Below, piece by piece: positions 9,111-30,971 of a DNA stretch of 36,591 bases. A model generated the notes under the pieces. It saw only the letters and a list, made by a program, of their open reading frames with translations. It was not told the DNA's origin and did no database searches. Each line of letters opens with the position of its first letter. Positions within the stretch are counted from its first letter, which is position 1. This DNA comes from a virus, in IMG/VR virus record IMGVR_UViG_3300033571_006631, positions 1 through 36,591 of that record; one strand, 5' to 3'. The translations under genes and the position numbers were made by a program.

Positions 9111-11699
9111 TTAAATAATATTTAAAACTCTATCAACATATTCCCTAGTTTCTTTGGGAACCTTTACATACGCCTTAACTAATGCCCACGTCGGTTTCTT
9201 GCCATCTGCTTTTATCTTATCAATAGCTCGTTGCACATTCTCTGGGCCCCAATTATAGGCCGCCAAAGCAAGCTCGCGATTGCCAAAACGATCTAGTTGT
9301 TGTTGCAGATAACGGCTACCGCCTTCTACATTTTCTTGAGGGTCTTTAGCATTAATGCCAAGCTGTTTAGCTGTAACAGGCATAAGCTGCATCAAGCCCC
9401 TAGCACCTTTAGGGCTAACGGCTTCTTGATTGCCACCTGACTCAACTTGCATTACAGCCTTAACAAGGCTAGGTGGCGCATAAGCATCGCCTGTAGGTAT
9501 GCTGATGTTTTGTTTGCCTACTTGGATTGGTTCTGGCGTAGGAGTTGGTTCTGTTGGGGCTTCTGCTAATTTTAGCAAGTCTTCCAACTCTTTTCTTTGC
9601 GCGTCATTCAATCCAGATGGCACTGGCGTTTCAGTAATTGACGGAATTAAAGGAGTTGATACCTCTTCTTGCATTTGAGGGGTAAAGAATCCAGCTCCAC
9701 GAGCTAAAGCGGCAGTTTGTGGCGCTATTGAAGCTAAAGAATCCAAAAACTTTTGCCCGCGCATTGCCGTTTGAGCCGCTGCTTCCTCTCCAAACTTAGC
9801 AGCGTCAGCAACATATTTATATGCTGTTGCTGGGTCTTGTAATGCTTGCGTCAATGCAGTGGCAACTAGCTCAGTGCCTCGTTGAGCTGTTGGCAATCCA
9901 AATCGTAATGCTGCGGCCGATAAAGCCCCTGATATTTTGCCTCCAAGAGTGCTGGTTATTCCAGATCGAGCTACATTTCCAAGTGCTGAAATAGTAACCG
10001 CATCCGCCGGAGAAGATGGTAATACTCGTGACTCTCCGCCTAACGCTCTTATTAAACTTTTTGCTTGAACATCTATATTACTAGGAGAAAGAGCGGGAAC
10101 ATCTGCCGATTTAGCAGCGGTTTGCGTTCTTTTTAGGATATCTTCCCATCCTTGTACTAACGGCCAAATCGGGCTATCAACGTAAATAGCGCGTTTATCT
10201 CTAATCCATTTCAACTTTTCGTCTACAGTTTCTTTATTAGCAAAATCTGCCATTTCAGTTGCTAATTTATTAGGCTCTAATCCGCCTAATACCTTGGCAT
10301 ATTCATCGGAGACGGCGGACTTTTTGCTGACTTCTGCAATAATATCTTCAGGACTTTGCTTACGTAATACTTTGTTCAACGGAGCACGTTGTCCGCTTTC
10401 ATCAAAAAACCAACGCTGTTTATATTCTCGCCATGCTGCTCTTGCCGTTGATAAACTTTCAGTTCCTTCTACTGCATCTATTTGCTTGGCTATTATTTCA
10501 GATAAACTATTAGCAAATGATTCATCTCTTGTGCCATCTTGCGCTCGCCTTCCAACATCAAGGATTGCGCTTCGTAATTCTTGCAACCTTCCTACAGTTG
10601 TTGTAATTGCCTCGCCTTTTTTTAATTTTCCTTTAGGCGCTGTTTCTTCTATTAATTTTTCGTATAAATTCCATAACTCATTATCAGCAGTATTAATGTC
10701 TGATTCTGGAAAAAATCTAATAAATGATTTTTTGGCCTCTTTTGCCAGTCCCTTAACTGGCACAGGGATGGATTTTACCTCTTCAGTAAATAATTCTGAT
10801 GCTGCTTTTCGTTGTCTTTCTTCTGCGCCTTGTAATAATGAGCGAGCAGCCTCTCCCGCGCGTTTGGGATTAGGATCTCCTAAATCAGTTAGTTGTAAAG
10901 CTGATTGGTTGATGTCATCTAGCTTTTGTTTTGCTGTAGCGGCAAATTTTATATTAGCATCGCCAGCAGGTTGCGTTTTAAGCAATCGCTCTGCTTGAGC
11001 TAATTCGTCTATGCCTGTTAATTCTGCGGTTGTAAGATTTTGAGCAGGTAATACTTTTGTTAAAGCCTCTTTTGTTTGAGCTGCTTCAAGCAACTCACCT
11101 GGAGATGCTATTCTTGATATTTCTTTGCCGACAAGTCTTTGCGCTGCTTCTTCAGTTTGCGGCCCTAAATAATCTGCTAAAGATGTAGCAATTTTACTAA
11201 CGCCCTTACCTGCTATTCTACCAACTGGTCCAGCTAATTTTAAAGTCCCTTCAATGCCAGCTCCAAGCGCGGCTTCTTTTGTAGCTTGTTCTACACGCCC
11301 TTCAGATGGCGTTACTCCGGCAAAATAATCAATAGCTTTTTGTATAGGAACGTCAGCAAAAGAGCCTAACGCTCCTCCGAGTATTGATCCAAGAGGTCCA
11401 AATGCGCTCCCGCCAGCTCTACCTATAATTGTTCCAACACGTCCACCTATAATACTACCAGCAATACTTGCAGCTTCTTCTGGAATTATTCGTACATTTT
11501 CCAGTGAAAATTGATTGTTTATTTCTGATGGATATTTATATGTACCAAACATTGTGCCGACTAACGGCTCAGGTGTTGGTGTAAATGATGGAGTAGCCAT
11601 AATTGAAGGAGTAGGGGTTGGCGTAGGTAAAAAGTCCATTCCCGTCGCAACGGCGGATTCTCTTTCTGCTTGCGCCAATAATTCTTCTACAGTTGCCAT
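9111..11699 (-). CDS. Internal virion / DNA-ejection protein with C-terminal transglycosylase domain
   Basis: The protein has 862 residues. Near the N-terminus is a Thr/Pro repeat (FLPTPTPTPS), followed by a Gly-rich hydrophobic stretch (about 75-120, IIGGRVGTIIGRAGGSAFGP) that could insert in a membrane. A long helical body covers 150-680. A soluble lytic transglycosylase domain occupies about 740-862, with VESGGNQ (catalytic Glu near 753), GARGLMQLMP and LAAYNWGP. Podovirus ejection proteins of this build leave the capsid with the DNA and open the cell wall locally. It forms a run with two upstream internal proteins. Confidence 0.85.
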   Translation of the reverse strand: MATVEELLAQAERESAVATGMDFLPTPTPTPSIMATPSFTPTPEPLVGTMFGTYKYPSEINNQFSLENVRIIPEEAASIAGSIIGGRVGTIIGRAGGSAFGPLGSILGGALGSFADVPIQKAIDYFAGVTPSEGRVEQATKEAALGAGIEGTLKLAGPVGRIAGKGVSKIATSLADYLGPQTEEAAQRLVGKEISRIASPGELLEAAQTKEALTKVLPAQNLTTAELTGIDELAQAERLLKTQPAGDANIKFAATAKQKLDDINQSALQLTDLGDPNPKRAGEAARSLLQGAEERQRKAASELFTEEVKSIPVPVKGLAKEAKKSFIRFFPESDINTADNELWNLYEKLIEETAPKGKLKKGEAITTTVGRLQELRSAILDVGRRAQDGTRDESFANSLSEIIAKQIDAVEGTESLSTARAAWREYKQRWFFDESGQRAPLNKVLRKQSPEDIIAEVSKKSAVSDEYAKVLGGLEPNKLATEMADFANKETVDEKLKWIRDKRAIYVDSPIWPLVQGWEDILKRTQTAAKSADVPALSPSNIDVQAKSLIRALGGESRVLPSSPADAVTISALGNVARSGITSTLGGKISGALSAAALRFGLPTAQRGTELVATALTQALQDPATAYKYVADAAKFGEEAAAQTAMRGQKFLDSLASIAPQTAALARGAGFFTPQMQEEVSTPLIPSITETPVPSGLNDAQRKELEDLLKLAEAPTEPTPTPEPIQVGKQNISIPTGDAYAPPSLVKAVMQVESGGNQEAVSPKGARGLMQLMPVTAKQLGINAKDPQENVEGGSRYLQQQLDRFGNRELALAAYNWGPENVQRAIDKIKADGKKPTWALVKAYVKVPKETREYVDRVLNII

Positions 11700-14172: not shown

Positions 14173-15705
14173 CTATACCTGCCCACCCATATCGTAACGT
14201 ATTTCAAATCCAAGTATTTGCATAGTTGAGTTTTTTATTGAACCCCCAAAACGAACAGCGGCACAATGCCCCTGCCCTTTTGTAGCGTATCGATCAAAAA
14301 CGTATTCTACTTCTGATGACCAAGGCGATCCCCATGGACTGCCCCAGGGGGTAAATGTTCCCGCTGATGTAGCAACCGCGGTGACAGTTGCTTGCCGTTT
14401 AAAATCGGTATCCAGCCCAAGATTTAGCGTAATACCTCGTTTAACTTTTACTATTGGTCGAATGTCTTTGAATGCTTTGTAATTAGCTCTTGAGCCGTAG
14501 AAACTAAACGCTGTACGCCCATTATAAGCTATAGATTGGCTATCTGTTGCTGTTACAGCGTCAGCTTGCCCTGTTTCCCCCTTCCATACAATGCCCGTTG
14601 TGGAGGCGTAATAGGGCTTCTTATTAAACAAGCATGAAGCAAAGCTATGCTCGTTGTTGTAAAGCTGGAACAACGTCCATCCTTTGGTGTCTATGCTATA
14701 CACCAAAAACTGACAGGCATTATCAGCCGTTGGATAGCTAATATAAACTCGCCTACCCTGACCCCAAAAGAATCCTGACCATTGATGATCAAAGCTAAAC
14801 TGACTAGCTGTTTCTGATATTAAGGGGTTAATTTTAGAGCTGACAATGTTTAATGCCGCTTCTGGGTCGCTGGCAAATAGCCCTGAAATTGGCAAAATAC
14901 CTTGTTCGGTAATAATCCAAACGTCATTGTTGACCCGTACAAAAGCACGATAGCCTAAAGGTCGGCCAACGTAATATCGAGCTACTAAAGCCCAAGTATT
15001 AGGATCGCCAGCATAGTAGCCTGTGTAGAATACTATTTCGCCTAAGCTACTACATGCCCAGAAATAATCTTGGCTTGTCATGCTGGTATTAGTGCTAAAA
15101 CTACCTATACCGACAAGGAAACCACCCTTAGTAAAAACATATTGGAAATCAAAACTAGTAAGCGCCGGAGTTGCAGCCGTTCCTGTTACTTGCAAACCTC
15201 CATACCAAACTTTACAAGTATTCTTCTCAACAAAATATAAACGCTCTTTGTAGGCGGTCACGTTGATAAGATTACTAAGGGTGACGCCCGTGAATGTAAC
15301 ATCACTAACATTGCCAGTTCCGGTATAAACTTTGGCATTGTTTACGCCGTTACAAAGATAAAGATTGTTAGCGTATTGAACCGTTTGAAATTGCCCATCC
15401 GTGACCGTTGTAGAGCCTGTAATATCAGATGATACACCAGCCGAGGTAATGGCATAAATCTTACTATTAGTAGTTGCAACGAGCTGAGTCGTTCCATCTT
15501 TTAAATCGATAGACGCAATAGTATTGATTGGCGTAGCTGTACCAACATTCGCAAATTGCTCATACCCTAGACGAACAGTAGGAGCACTCGCCCCTGGGAA
15601 CACGTTTACGAGCTCCAGAGCATAGGAAGGCTCCATATTGTCTATCGGACTTACTAAGTCCAATCCACCGTAAGGAGGTGGCATGGTAAAGCCTTGGAAA
15701 GCCAT
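14173..15705 (-). CDS. Beta-propeller tail nozzle / stabilisation-like protein, 510 aa
   Basis: The protein is beta-rich throughout. It opens with a Pro/Gly segment (FTMPPPYGGLDLVSPIDNM), typical of phage tail-hub proteins, and then repeats blade-like blocks (FQTVQYANNLYLCNGVN, YKERLYFVEKNTCKVWYG, QDYFWACSSLGEIVFYTG, RAFVRVNNDVWIITEQG). Proteins with this order in short-tailed phages form the six-bladed tail nozzle or plug (P22 gp10 / T7 gp12-like). A Gly/Ser/Pro/Trp repeat (TPWGSPWGSPW) is near 460. Its neighbours, the adaptor and internal proteins, agree. Confidence 0.75.
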   Translation of the reverse strand: MAFQGFTMPPPYGGLDLVSPIDNMEPSYALELVNVFPGASAPTVRLGYEQFANVGTATPINTIASIDLKDGTTQLVATTNSKIYAITSAGVSSDITGSTTVTDGQFQTVQYANNLYLCNGVNNAKVYTGTGNVSDVTFTGVTLSNLINVTAYKERLYFVEKNTCKVWYGGLQVTGTAATPALTSFDFQYVFTKGGFLVGIGSFSTNTSMTSQDYFWACSSLGEIVFYTGYYAGDPNTWALVARYYVGRPLGYRAFVRVNNDVWIITEQGILPISGLFASDPEAALNIVSSKINPLISETASQFSFDHQWSGFFWGQGRRVYISYPTADNACQFLVYSIDTKGWTLFQLYNNEHSFASCLFNKKPYYASTTGIVWKGETGQADAVTATDSQSIAYNGRTAFSFYGSRANYKAFKDIRPIVKVKRGITLNLGLDTDFKRQATVTAVATSAGTFTPWGSPWGSPWSSEVEYVFDRYATKGQGHCAAVRFGGSIKNSTMQILGFEIRYDMGGQV

Positions 15706-26115: not shown

Positions 26116-28692
26116 TTAACTCTCCGTCTCGTTTTCTTCGTCTAAATCATCTAATTCAATACTCGGATTACCTAACTCATCCGTTGTAATTTTCCCACGT
26201 CGCTTAGCTCTTTTTGGCATTATGTTGTTAATTACAATAGGATTTGCTTTGCTTTCTTCTTTTGGAGTTGTAGTCAGCGTTTGCATGGCGATTCTAATGC
26301 GCTCTAATTCGTTTTCAGAATTAAGACGTCTTTCTTCCATTAACTTTTCTGATTCGCTCATGCGAATACGCATTTGCTCTAATTCTAGTTTTTGAATTTC
26401 AAGAATTTGAGACATACGATTTGTTTCTTGAGCAATAGCAGCTTTGTTTGCTTCGCCTTGAGCTGTAGATTGAATTTTCATCATATCTACTTGCACTGAA
26501 TTAGATTTAATCTGCAATTCTTGTTGCGCTAGTCCAAGCTCTTGCTGTTTAAGATATTCTTCAAATTGTTGCTTTTGAATTGCTAATTGCGAGTCAAGTT
26601 GGTCGCGTTGCATTTTTAACTGCTGTTCTTGGTATGCAAGTTGGTTTTTTGTAGACTTATCTTGCATTTCCATTTGAGCAGCTTGCAACCTAGCTTGTGA
26701 TTCTACTTGTGCTATTTGCAGCCGACCTTGTACTTCAAGAGTCGTTGGATCCGGCGGCGGCGGTTGTTTAGCCGCTTCTTCCTTCGCCTTAGCAATATCG
26801 CCAATTTGCTGCATAGCTTTTGTAAAAATTCCATCTAACTCTTTGCCTCCCTTCATGCGTTTAATCATGTTTTGAAACAAAGACATGCTAAAATCTAACA
26901 ATGGCGGGTATTGCTCTACTAACCCTCGCATTTGATCAAAAAATGCTCCGGCACGTTCTATTAACATTGCGCCATCTTGCTGTTGCTGTTGCTGATCAAT
27001 AGCAATCATGCTGTCAGATGCGATTTGTATGCGATAGCTACGCTTTTTATTATCTCGCAAAATTTGAATAATTTGCTGCTTCATTTCATCAATTTTTTGC
27101 AGCATGTTTGGTTCTGGCATTGGAGGTGGAGCCATTGGCGCACCTGACTCATCTGGTGATACACCTTCTGGTCCTGGAGCTGGAGGAGGCGGAGGAGGAG
27201 CAATATAAATAGTTGGCTCTATCAAAACATCTGCATCGCCTACTTCTAAAATAGTTTGCTCGTCAAATTGCTCTGCAATAATTGTGCCAAGATTGCTAAT
27301 AGCATCTGAAACAAACTTGCTAAACATGTTTTGACGCACTACTAATCCTAAAGAGGACCATTGATTTTCAAGTCTGTTAGCTGTGGCTGATTTGTATTGT
27401 TCGCTAGTTCCACGAAGCAAATCCGAAACTTTTAATGTTTCGTACAGTTGTTGTAAGCCATTAGTTCGAGCGCCTTGAAGCACATTTAAAGCGTTTACAA
27501 ATGGTTCTACGGGATAAAACTCAACGCCAGCTTGCAACCCGCCACGACCTTTGTAACTTGGCCAGTTAGTAATAGGAGAGCCTTTCAAGTCGCCGCTAAA
27601 CAACTGCTCAACGTTTGGACCCATTGCAGCGTCATAAAGAAAGTTTGTGCGAATAGCTTGAGTAACAGCATGAATACGAGTTGTAAGTCGCTCTACTTCT
27701 AGTATTTGATCTCGAACATGCGTGTAATCTGAAACAGGAATTACTGAATCGGGGTCATTGGATTGTCTTATAACAGAGCAAGGATAAAATTTTTCAAATT
27801 TTGTTGGCGGTTCTGAAGATTCAATAATAGGGTTATCGCCGTTTTTTTGCAGCCAATAAACCTTGCCGGTGGCTTCGCACCAAATCTCGTGTAACTCCGC
27901 TTTACCTTCGTATTTATCGTCTTTTCGTGCTATGTCTTTTTTGCTTACCTCAGGGAATGAATCATAACTTAAATCATCAGCAACTTCTCGGCCAAACAAA
28001 GCTTCTGCTTGCATTCGATCAAGGTAAGCTCGACGCGCTTGCCATTCAATTTCATCTTCTGTGCGAGCATCTGAGCAATCGTAATCGTTGTATTGAACAA
28101 TATCCAGCAATGCTTTTTCACTGGTTTTTTGCTCTATTTCTACGGATGCAATAAAAATGTTTCCTTCTCCAGGCGTCAAAATGTTGACGTCTCCAGTGTA
28201 AGGCTTGCCTGTTCCGTCAATAAATTGACCGCTAGGATCTTTAATAACAGCAATTTCTTGCAATACTTTTTCAAACTTGGCAGCGTACCTTGCCCAAAGC
28301 ACACTTTGACCCGTGAGCAAAAATTGTAGTGCTGCGTTATATCCTATTTTATCAAAGTCAAAATGCAGATCCATTGCATATTGAGTGTTACGCTCAAGAA
28401 TTACACTACCAAGTTCGTATGGAATGCCACCTGACCGTTTCCGCAGATTTACTTCTGCTTTTGGCGTAGAAGAGTAGTAGGCAGGAAGCAAAGTATTAAC
28501 ACAATACCACCAAACATTAAGTCGTCTCTCAGCATCATTTAGAATGCCTACTTGTTTTTGTGCATTATAAACTCTAATTGATTCTTCTGCTTGTTCTACG
28601 AATCTTTTGCGATGTTCTTGAGATTGAGTAATTTGAGCTTTCCACCAACGAGGAGAATACTTTTGAATTAACGGCTTTATTTTTACGCTCAT
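26116..28692 (-). CDS. Portal protein, 858 aa
   Basis: The start overlaps the terminase stop (ATGA) with AAGGAT upstream. The first 480 residues show portal-like blocks: an N-terminal helical clamp (SPRWWKAQITQSQEHRKRFV), AERRLNVWWYCVNTLLPAYY, QFLLTGQSVLWARYAAKF, YNDYDCSDARTEDEIEWQAR and YKSATANRLENQWSSLGLVV. A Pro-rich linker (APPPPPPAPGPEG, about 500) is followed by a long Gln/Glu-rich coiled coil (640-810), like the barrel helices of P22-type portals. The dodecameric ring is the DNA channel and docks the terminase. Confidence 0.82.
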   Translation of the reverse strand: MSVKIKPLIQKYSPRWWKAQITQSQEHRKRFVEQAEESIRVYNAQKQVGILNDAERRLNVWWYCVNTLLPAYYSSTPKAEVNLRKRSGGIPYELGSVILERNTQYAMDLHFDFDKIGYNAALQFLLTGQSVLWARYAAKFEKVLQEIAVIKDPSGQFIDGTGKPYTGDVNILTPGEGNIFIASVEIEQKTSEKALLDIVQYNDYDCSDARTEDEIEWQARRAYLDRMQAEALFGREVADDLSYDSFPEVSKKDIARKDDKYEGKAELHEIWCEATGKVYWLQKNGDNPIIESSEPPTKFEKFYPCSVIRQSNDPDSVIPVSDYTHVRDQILEVERLTTRIHAVTQAIRTNFLYDAAMGPNVEQLFSGDLKGSPITNWPSYKGRGGLQAGVEFYPVEPFVNALNVLQGARTNGLQQLYETLKVSDLLRGTSEQYKSATANRLENQWSSLGLVVRQNMFSKFVSDAISNLGTIIAEQFDEQTILEVGDADVLIEPTIYIAPPPPPPAPGPEGVSPDESGAPMAPPPMPEPNMLQKIDEMKQQIIQILRDNKKRSYRIQIASDSMIAIDQQQQQQDGAMLIERAGAFFDQMRGLVEQYPPLLDFSMSLFQNMIKRMKGGKELDGIFTKAMQQIGDIAKAKEEAAKQPPPPDPTTLEVQGRLQIAQVESQARLQAAQMEMQDKSTKNQLAYQEQQLKMQRDQLDSQLAIQKQQFEEYLKQQELGLAQQELQIKSNSVQVDMMKIQSTAQGEANKAAIAQETNRMSQILEIQKLELEQMRIRMSESEKLMEERRLNSENELERIRIAMQTLTTTPKEESKANPIVINNIMPKRAKRRGKITTDELGNPSIELDDLDEENETES

Positions 28693-30971
28693 ATCCTTGC
28701 TCGTTTTGATTGCGAACGAATTTGATTTATATATGCTTGCAGTTTAATTCGACCCTTATTAAATACTGCTGCTGGTTGTTCCCACTTTGCATCAATCAAA
28801 CGCCCTTTGCAGAGGTATCTTAATGCGTCACAGTTATGAGACACAACCCTATTAGCCAATACAAAGGTACTGGTAGCTGGCACACTTAGGCAATACACAT
28901 CTTGCGGGGCTTCGGTATAAGCGATGGATTTAATCGCCTTCGTCGTGCGCTCATTTTGCAATTCCGATGGCAATACTTTGATTTGTGTTTCATATTGAGT
29001 TTGGTTTGATATTTCTTGCTGCAAAATTGACACGTCATTTGAATATAAGGCATATCCTGCGCCACTTTCTTTGCATGGATAGAGTGCCATTTTCGACCCT
29101 CCCCAGATTTGTGCCATTGTATTGCTGCGGGAACTGCATTCAACACTATATTTTGCGCCGCTGCTTGTCGTCGTTCTGGTGTCATATGATTGCTCAAATG
29201 AACCTTTGCTTCCAGCAATTCTAAATTGCTTATTTGATTGTTTGCTTTGTTCCCATCCTTGTGATGGATGTGCATTCCTTTTGGAATTGCGCCATTGAAG
29301 TATTCCCAAACTTTTCTGTGCAATCGTCTTGAGCCACGAACGCCCTTTTGTTGCGATGAAAAGTAATTTCCGCAACGGTAATACTTTATGTTGTTGAATT
29401 CTTGAACGGTCTCTGAAATAACCTTTACCATAGGTAACGCAACGTATCAGATCGTCGGAGGTTAAGCAATTAGCTTCTTTAAACGTGCCATCAGCAAGCA
29501 TGAATTTATGATCTGGAGTGCATGTTATTTCACTATTATCTTCCAAAATAATTTTCATGACCTCAGCATTTTTGCGGGTAAGAAAGCCGCAAGCCTCATG
29601 ATAATACCCATCATGTGCAAGTACATGAATGCTAAAATCGCCGCATAAATCTTTAATTGGAAGTGGACCAGAATCGGTTAAAATAAGAGTATCGCCGGTA
29701 AGACAGGCATGATCATTGCCAGTAGAATCTGCATCCTCTGGCCGTCGCTTATCTATGGATAAGGATGGTAAAGTTTCTAACAAATATGGGCAAGTAGCAA
29801 AAATGTATAGCAAAGGCGGATTAGCGACTAGCCGTTGTCGAATCTGCGACCATCCTGAAATGCGATCATTATCCGCTGCGCGAAAGCTAGGAAATTTATA
29901 CTTCGCAAACACGGTTGTGAATTGATCAGCAATACTTGGTCCGCCTTCGTGATTAAAAATACTAGGATCGGCAAATGCTAGTGGATTTTCTCCGACGGAT
30001 ACAGATCCGATTCTATTAGCCTGATCAATGTTATCAACTCCTTTTCCCCACATTTCTCTGTAGATAATAATTGCTCCTTGTGGATACGGTACTTCATTGC
30101 CCGAATCGTCTCGGCCTGATGAAACAGCACCCCAAACAGCAGCAAATGGACTCCGATAACCCCAGTCATACCCCATATACCTGTGCCAATGTTTAGGCAT
30201 GTTAAAAGGACTAATAATGTGTTTAGAGCTAAACTCAGGAAAGTAACTGCCTTCATGGATTTCAAAATCTCCTTCTAGCCATGCTCTGACAAGCTCAGGA
30301 GAGCCTACCATGTGCAATCGATTAATATATTCAGGGTCTCTTGCTAATAGAATTTGATTATCATGTACGCGACTAGGAATATAAATATAATCAAAACTTG
30401 CCCCATTCGGTAACATTTTTTTAAGCAGCTTCATTCCTTTAGGAGCTGGCTTAATAAATAATTCTTTTAGCCAACTATGCCCAATACCACCAGGGTTAAA
30501 CGTAAGGATAACCTGACCGCCACCCTTGCCTCGTAGCGCTCCAAATAACTTCCAGATACAGCTTGGGTCAGCATAATTACCCGCCTCCTCGACAGCCGCA
30601 TGGCTTAACGACTGGCCTTGAAATTTTTCAGCATCAGCATCATTGGCTAAGGGTCTAAAACGTAGGCGACCACCACCTAAGAAGGTAAACTGCTTTTTCT
30701 GATCCTGCCAGTGCGCTTTAAGGGGTAGGTAAATTTGCTTAGCACGCTCAATAAGGTCATCAGCTTGAGGAAGTTCTTTACGAAAAAAAACTGCATTAAA
30801 ATCTTTGCCCCATTGTTCTTGCGCTATTGCAAACTTGCCAAGTACCCCGTCGGTCTTACCTCCACCTCGTGCACCACCATAACCAACTAGTGTAATGGGG
30901 CAGTTTACCAGGGCCTCCTGCGGACCCTGTTGAGGCCGCCATACGACATTTACATCAAGATTATTGGTCAT
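28689..30971 (-). CDS. terL: Terminase large subunit interrupted by an intein
   Basis: The ORF has 760 codons; removing the 291-residue intein leaves 469, a normal TerL length. The ATPase has Walker A in VGYGGARGGGKTDGV (about 27-41), Walker B in LSHAAVEEAGNY and the coupling motif VILTFNPGG. The RNase-H-like nuclease shows YMGYDWGYRSPFAAVWG, then PLAFADPS, and finally NDHA^CDALRYL, interrupted at the caret by the intein (residues 423-713). TerL cuts and pumps DNA into the procapsid. Its first bases overlap a zinc-ribbon ORF and its stop overlaps the portal start. Splicing must occur to restore the nuclease motif. Confidence 0.9.
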   Translation of the reverse strand: MTNNLDVNVVWRPQQGPQEALVNCPITLVGYGGARGGGKTDGVLGKFAIAQEQWGKDFNAVFFRKELPQADDLIERAKQIYLPLKAHWQDQKKQFTFLGGGRLRFRPLANDADAEKFQGQSLSHAAVEEAGNYADPSCIWKLFGALRGKGGGQVILTFNPGGIGHSWLKELFIKPAPKGMKLLKKMLPNGASFDYIYIPSRVHDNQILLARDPEYINRLHMVGSPELVRAWLEGDFEIHEGSYFPEFSSKHIISPFNMPKHWHRYMGYDWGYRSPFAAVWGAVSSGRDDSGNEVPYPQGAIIIYREMWGKGVDNIDQANRIGSVSVGENPLAFADPSIFNHEGGPSIADQFTTVFAKYKFPSFRAADNDRISGWSQIRQRLVANPPLLYIFATCPYLLETLPSLSIDKRRPEDADSTGNDHACLTGDTLILTDSGPLPIKDLCGDFSIHVLAHDGYYHEACGFLTRKNAEVMKIILEDNSEITCTPDHKFMLADGTFKEANCLTSDDLIRCVTYGKGYFRDRSRIQQHKVLPLRKLLFIATKGRSWLKTIAQKSLGILQWRNSKRNAHPSQGWEQSKQSNKQFRIAGSKGSFEQSYDTRTTTSSGAKYSVECSSRSNTMAQIWGGSKMALYPCKESGAGYALYSNDVSILQQEISNQTQYETQIKVLPSELQNERTTKAIKSIAYTEAPQDVYCLSVPATSTFVLANRVVSHNCDALRYLCKGRLIDAKWEQPAAVFNKGRIKLQAYINQIRSQSKRARI
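28833..29705 (-). mobile_element. Intein inserted in terL, 291 residues
   Basis: The splice-critical residues are all present: Cys1 in CLTGDTLILTDSGPLPIKDL, block B as EITCTPDHKFML (T-x-x-H), block F as DVYCLSVPATSTFVLANRVV, and the C-terminal SHN before +1 Cys. It therefore should splice itself out. The in-frame region between about residues 92 and 262 is Ser/Thr/Gln/Lys-rich and shows no LAGLIDADG or HNH motif. That same DNA encodes an HNH protein in the +1 frame. The insertion lies in the conserved D-H-x-x-D-A-L-R-Y nuclease motif, a typical choice for inteins. Confidence 0.88.
28886..29431 (-). CDS. HNH homing endonuclease nested in the intein, +1 frame, 181 aa
   Basis: The ORF is complete, on the same strand as terL and fully inside the intein codons (about 92-273). 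The N-terminal part (NNIKYYRCGNYFSSQ, RRLHRKVWEYFNGAIPKG) leads to a full HNH core, MHIHHKDGNKANNQISNLEL followed by LSNH. The C-terminus has a treble-clef-like zinc finger (CQFCSKK and CHRNCKMSARRRR). An in-frame TGA lies 18 bases before the ATG, so the start is fixed. No Shine-Dalgarno is visible upstream. Its last codons overlap intein block F. It probably cuts intein-free terL alleles and so drives homing; this is inferred. Confidence 0.8.
   Translation of the reverse strand: MVKVISETVQEFNNIKYYRCGNYFSSQQKGVRGSRRLHRKVWEYFNGAIPKGMHIHHKDGNKANNQISNLELLEAKVHLSNHMTPERRQAAAQNIVLNAVPAAIQWHKSGEGRKWHSIHAKKVAQDMPYIQMTCQFCSKKYQTKLNMKHKSKYCHRNCKMSARRRRLNPSLIPKPRKMCIA

Follow-up and report, generated by a model that had tools for sequence, protein, structure and literature searches.

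The DNA analysed here (the window) is a viral stretch of 36,591 nucleotides, record IMGVR_UViG_3300033571_006631 of IMG/VR. Its minus strand carries the gene of the large terminase subunit, terL, as a single open frame of 760 codons, with the portal gene (26116-28692) downstream. The terL frame matches the Pfam model Intein_splicing (PF14890, E 9.2e-16), and inside it, on the same strand and in the +1 frame relative to the intein frame, lies a 181-codon open reading frame with its own ATG and TAA that matches Pfam HNH_3 (E 2.7e-17). These coordinates and Pfam matches confirmed what an earlier note had read from the letters alone, namely a complete HNH gene shifted by one base within an open terL/intein frame. 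Elsewhere on the minus strand of the window, an 862-aa protein with a C-terminal transglycosylase/lytic tail domain (9111-11699) and a 510-aa amidase-family protein (14173-15705) were recognised with PHROGs. The features of the locus are as follows.

28689-30971, minus strand: terL gene with intein, 760 aa; terminase N-terminal domain
29706-30971, minus strand: N-extein, terL aa 1-422; joined to the C-extein without a gap in intein-less relatives, e.g., L036
28833-29705, minus strand: intein, 291 aa; Cys1, block B T63-x-x-H66, His290-Asn291 and +1 Cys; matches Intein_splicing, TIGR01445 and TIGR01443
29430-29705, minus strand: N-terminal splicing half (Hint N), intein aa 1-92; pLDDT 82-91 over aa 1-90, Foldseek matches to mini-inteins
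28953-29429, minus strand: intein-frame linker over the HNH gene, intein aa 93-251; open, unconserved, apparently neutral, predicted disordered (pLDDT mostly below 50), missing from the mini-intein L041
28833-28952, minus strand: C-terminal splicing half (Hint C), intein aa 252-291; supported by NCBIfam intein models and pLDDT
28689-28832, minus strand: C-extein and terL stop
28886-29431, minus strand: homing endonuclease gene of the HNH_3 type, 181 codons, at +1 to the intein frame; supported by the HNH_3 match, predicted fold and relatives
29429-29431, minus strand: HNH start codon ATG; an ATG stands near the start in 24/24 family members, without an upstream Shine-Dalgarno sequence
29204-29326, minus strand: HNH catalytic core, HNH aa 36-76; HNH_3 match, invariant H56, H57 and N65
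28958-29032, minus strand: C-terminal Cys4 motif (C134, C137, C154, C158), invariant in alignments
28886-28952, minus strand: stretch that looks truly dual-coding, the HNH end over Hint C; constraint in both frames

The intein, residues 423-713 of the precursor, meets the criteria of a class 1 Hint intein in its residues (Cys1 in block A, Thr-x-x-His in block B, here T-P-D-H, and a His-Asn end followed by the +1 Cys in block G), in its profile matches (PF14890, TIGR01445, TIGR01443) and in its insertion at a precise site with intein-free alleles among close relatives. The HNH region is flanked by matches to the NCBIfam models of the intein N- and C-terminus. Among relatives, the block B Thr and His and the terminal Asn are invariant and the +1 Cys nearly so; Intein_splicing was matched by 47 of 50 terL ORFs of this intein type, TIGR01445 by 35 and TIGR01443 by 36. 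In the AlphaFold2 model residues 1-90 and 252-291 were confident, while most of 93-251, which is exactly the HNH overlap, stayed below pLDDT 50, and the Foldseek matches of the predicted structure were mini-inteins. Protein splicing of the 291-aa intein is inferred from its conserved splicing residues, as no splicing data exist. A natural 136-aa mini-intein (L041, 2388-2800) occupies the same terL site, with flanks nearly identical to those of L039; the HNH region is cleanly deleted and both Hint halves are kept, so the linker appears dispensable. This mini-intein is a possible compact splicing tool. An RNA intron, such as a group I intron with an HNH ORF, was rejected because no Rfam match was obtained at E values up to 1.

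The HNH protein meets the criterion of an HNH homing endonuclease through its HNH_3 profile and conserved catalytic residues. Its predicted fold has a mean pLDDT of 91, and its best solved relative is I-HmuI (sequence E 3e-4, Foldseek E 9e-3). H56, H57 and N65 are invariant among relatives, and so are the four cysteines, consistent with the zinc finger that had been suspected. Cleavage by this protein is inferred, in the absence of cleavage data. In one relative (L095:3732-4242) a His-to-Asp change in the catalytic motif (HIDH) was seen; this HNH gene is perhaps decaying, and both frames are still open.

Layouts among the relatives of the HNH gene

The earlier note had suggested searching for homologues with the same out-of-frame HNH. 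As a first scan used the HNH protein alone as query, there was no selection for an open second frame. It returned 14 further full-length or near-full-length relatives (68-84% identical) and one cut by a contig end, and in every one of them the terL-intein frame was open across the HNH region. A profile scan then enlarged the set. Of the 87 distinct HNH loci collected by HNH similarity (including the window), 66 have the HNH gene out of frame while the intein frame stays open across it, 13 have it between the halves of a split intein, and 8 are free-standing genes; two truncated contigs among the 87 were placed by hand. The out-of-frame loci divide equally between the window's phase (dual2, 33) and the other off phase (dual1, 33), and none of the 87 HNH genes was in frame. 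Many of these loci are close kin and not independent events, so that kinship inflates the counts; as the deep branches of the HNH tree are poorly resolved, we do not claim directions of gain or loss.

In terL, an HNH_3 gene separates the halves of a split intein in L026, L137, L140, L143, L145, L147, L175, L178 and L007, and also in L144, L149, L151 and L177. The layout is not confined to terL: P0002, used as query against bacterial genomes, matched a single relative, a portal-gene intein with an out-of-frame HNH gene on an Asaia astilbis contig (L033:3745-6048, the same contig as L188). One terL (L131:803-4228) holds two inteins, an in-frame LAGLIDADG-like one at the P-loop, whose motifs were recognised by eye, and one of the out-of-frame HNH type at the window's site.

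A pair of sequencing or assembly frameshifts, or recent decay, might have displaced a once in-frame HNH domain, and in-frame HNH_3 inteins do exist, as in the dCTP deaminase intein of cyanophage CL131 (PMC6293099). We consider this origin hardly credible, given that the HNH gene begins and ends with codons of its own, that its codon choice is adapted to hold both frames open, and that it is out of frame in all relatives, which come from many assemblies and include several isolate genomes. The same layout in isolate or complete genomes (Tetrasphaera phage TJE1, Acinetobacter phage Highwayman, Rhodobacteraceae phage LS06) excludes an artefact of one assembly. No frameshift was found at the borders in any relative, and no homologue among them had the HNH fused into the intein frame by indels, a finding that would have refuted the overlapping-gene reading; on these comparative data from all relatives a sequencing frameshift was rejected. 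Decay of the HNH frame with the intein retained would also have counted against it, and was seen in L041, the mini-intein without an HNH, and in L029, whose HNH is damaged. Decay thus fails as a general explanation; both cases are rare losses, expected of homing elements.

Codon choice in the two frames

When the synonymous codons of the window's HNH gene were permuted (20,000 shuffles), the intein frame acquired 10.2 stops on average and never fewer than 2, against 0 observed, and the remaining third frame over the HNH contains 12 stops. That so long an open second frame would be very unlikely by chance, as had been estimated from stop frequency, was therefore borne out. An intein-frame stop arises when AA, AG or GA follows an HNH codon whose last base is T. 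Considering HNH codons that end in C or T, T was used at 0/17 positions where a stop would arise versus 42/59 elsewhere (p = 6e-8).

The same held across the relatives. Synonymous codon shuffles predicted 279 intein-frame stops over the HNH genes of dual2 and 76 over those of dual1, and none was observed in either. Observed and expected stops agreed in the control off frame (297/262 for dual2, 596/599 for dual1) and in free-standing HNH genes (37/38 and 133/126), and roughly agreed in split relatives (70/77 and 129/148). The zero is partly built into the definition of the dual classes; what is informative is how large the deficit is, that the controls agree, and that the window family was retrieved by HNH similarity. 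Individually, 12 of the 33 dual1 cases were not significant. Two split relatives, L140 and L149, were mildly depleted of stops in one off frame, which may be left over from a formerly contiguous form.

A two-frame dN/dS comparison, also suggested at the outset, gave a matching picture. In close pairs of the family, HNH-synonymous changes were about 3.5 times over-represented relative to nonsynonymous ones (nonsynonymous/synonymous ratio about 0.3), while in the intein-frame linker the two rates were equal. Judged by these substitutions, the HNH protein is under purifying selection, and the linker is, as far as such pairs can tell, neutral and merely held stop-free. Full-length true dual coding was rejected on the neutrality of the linker. 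Constraint in both frames was found over the last 34 HNH codons, and only the last 22-34 or so look truly dual-coding. There the HNH stop (TAA or TAG) arises inside an intein Leu codon, CTA or TTA in 24/24 family members, together with the next base. The idea that both proteins evolve under dual coding thus applies to the short overlap at the C-terminal end of the HNH, some 34 codons, and not to the rest of the intein frame, which is only kept open.

How the HNH protein is translated was approached through its start. No Shine-Dalgarno sequence precedes the ATG in the window family; such sequences were found before the HNH start in several other lineages, where they are good, and in most split ones. 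Translation from the gene's own ATG is inferred, without translation data: the ATG is present in all 24 family members but, unlike in several other lineages, lacks a Shine-Dalgarno sequence, so independent initiation is not demonstrated. This lack, and the position of the HNH frame at +1 to the intein frame, would also suit programmed +1 frameshifting out of the intein frame, which would produce an HNH fused behind TerL-N and Hint-N. We regard such frameshifting as quite unlikely in view of the invariably present ATG, the Shine-Dalgarno sequences of other lineages, and the other phase, which would require a different shift.

Empty sites and the proposed route of homing

The intein is present in 24 of the 80 nearest terL contigs, and the other 56 are empty at the corresponding residues; such closely related terL genes with empty sites are consistent with homing. 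In one empty allele (L036) the N-extein is 95% identical to that of the window. Identity between the two is 92-100% within about 700 bases of the site and, beyond this on the upstream side, 73-88% in most stretches, a pattern that fits recent transfer without proving it. The +1 residue is Cys in all carriers and Val, Met or Ala in many empty alleles (L049, L058, L060-L067, L084-L090 and similar). Since Val, Met and Ala are unusable for class 1 intein splicing, such alleles possibly resist invasion.

The HNH protein might alternatively serve as a cofactor in packaging, as terminase-associated HNH proteins do in tailed phages, and its overlap with the intein would then be incidental. It does sit in terL, and its free-standing relatives adjoin terminase genes; yet the intein, and hence this HNH, is missing from the 56 empty contigs, a relative lies in the Asaia portal-gene intein, and the best solved match is a homing endonuclease. 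We judge this role to be highly improbable, and the empty sites disfavour packaging as the only function.

We conclude that the locus is very probably a mobile intein in a phage large-terminase gene, whose homing endonuclease is encoded by a separate, overlapping gene. The earlier note had proposed an overlapping homing gene, and the proposal is supported by homologues whose HNH is likewise out of frame, by selection on the HNH reading frame, by the avoidance of intein-frame stops, by borders free of frameshifts in every relative and by the empty sites of close relatives. Translation of the terL frame would pass through the roughly 160 linker codons, and the Hint domain formed by both intein ends would excise itself and join the exteins, as its conserved splicing residues suggest. 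The HNH protein would be made from its own ATG on the same mRNA. From the empty sites and the patchy distribution it may be inferred that the enzyme nicks or cuts intein-free terL alleles of co-infecting phages, and that repair then copies the intein with its HNH gene into the cut site.

The embedding out of frame may have a simple reason. Because the HNH gene has its own stop, only the two off frames permit read-through of the host protein; an in-frame copy would truncate terL, and contiguous inteins would for this inferred reason keep the gene out of frame. Selection would then purge every synonymous codon that gives an intein-frame stop, an avoidance that is seen in the codons and whose reason is inferred. 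Split-intein relatives need no continuous frame, and general codon avoidance is absent there. Whether out-of-frame embedding is the main route of this free-standing HNH clade into inteins, with full-length genes-in-genes that evolved repeatedly in both phases, are kept by codon choice, and let the endonuclease be made and regulated apart from splicing, we consider evenly balanced.

Comparison with known systems

Canonical inteins (CL131, LAGLIDADG) share with the window intein the Hint domain and the place of the endonuclease between the Hint halves. Both activities are on one polypeptide in canonical inteins, whereas the window's endonuclease is a second protein in another frame; with the HNH in frame in 0 of the 87 loci, the criterion of a canonical in-frame endonuclease intein is not met. 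In fractured genes, as Dassa et al. reportedly described them in 2009, a homing endonuclease gene stands on its own between the two parts of a split intein, and the enzymes are said to belong to a nuclease family other than HNH_3. As in fractured genes, one site combines the splicing halves with an endonuclease gene distinct from them, and the split loci found here have that layout with HNH_3; unlike them, the window intein is contiguous, in one continuous frame, and its endonuclease gene overlaps it, so that the fractured-gene criterion is met only in some relatives. I-HmuI is encoded in a group I intron. The window's HNH resembles I-HmuI (PDB 1u3e) and free-standing phage HNH_3 endonucleases in its HNH core, sequence and fold, but, unlike for I-HmuI, no Rfam intron was found at its locus.

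The closest precedents qualify the novelty of the single case, for which the earlier note knew no described example. A 2015 paper on brucellaphages states in one sentence that a putative intein HNH gene lies "out of frame" in terL (PMC4422536); according to its authors this is the same gene and the same type of layout, reported as an annotation without tests of selection, phase or distribution. Out-of-frame HNH genes were also described in phage DNA methylases in 2025 (the ShiLan domain and the Pacc40 gp60 insert; PMC11855218, Genes). As in the window, the HNH gene is out of frame in a phage gene whose own frame stays open; unlike in the window, the host is a DNA methylase and no intein or intron splicing domain was found around the HNH, a criterion that the window's clear Hint halves do not meet. 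The same paper cites a preprint on "Actinobacteriophage inteins ... non-canonical architecture" (10.1101/2025.01.02.630785); a prior description there, or in the brucellaphage sequence, is possible. The individual case therefore has precedent. What is new is the widespread class with codon-level evidence: its breadth, both phases, the lack of in-frame members in the HNH clade and the codon-level evidence are undescribed as far as the literature could be searched.

Annotation pipelines that call one ORF per locus miss such genes, and several deposited genomes label the place of the HNH simply as "terminase large subunit". With this set of loci one can test the ways in which homing genes invade inteins, the translation of internal genes and the relation between split and contiguous inteins. 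Inteins are taught as a single polypeptide with the endonuclease domain nested in the splicing domain. In the window type one stretch of DNA would encode the two functions as separate proteins, an arrangement that codon choice maintains in dozens of phage lineages, with both possible frames in use.
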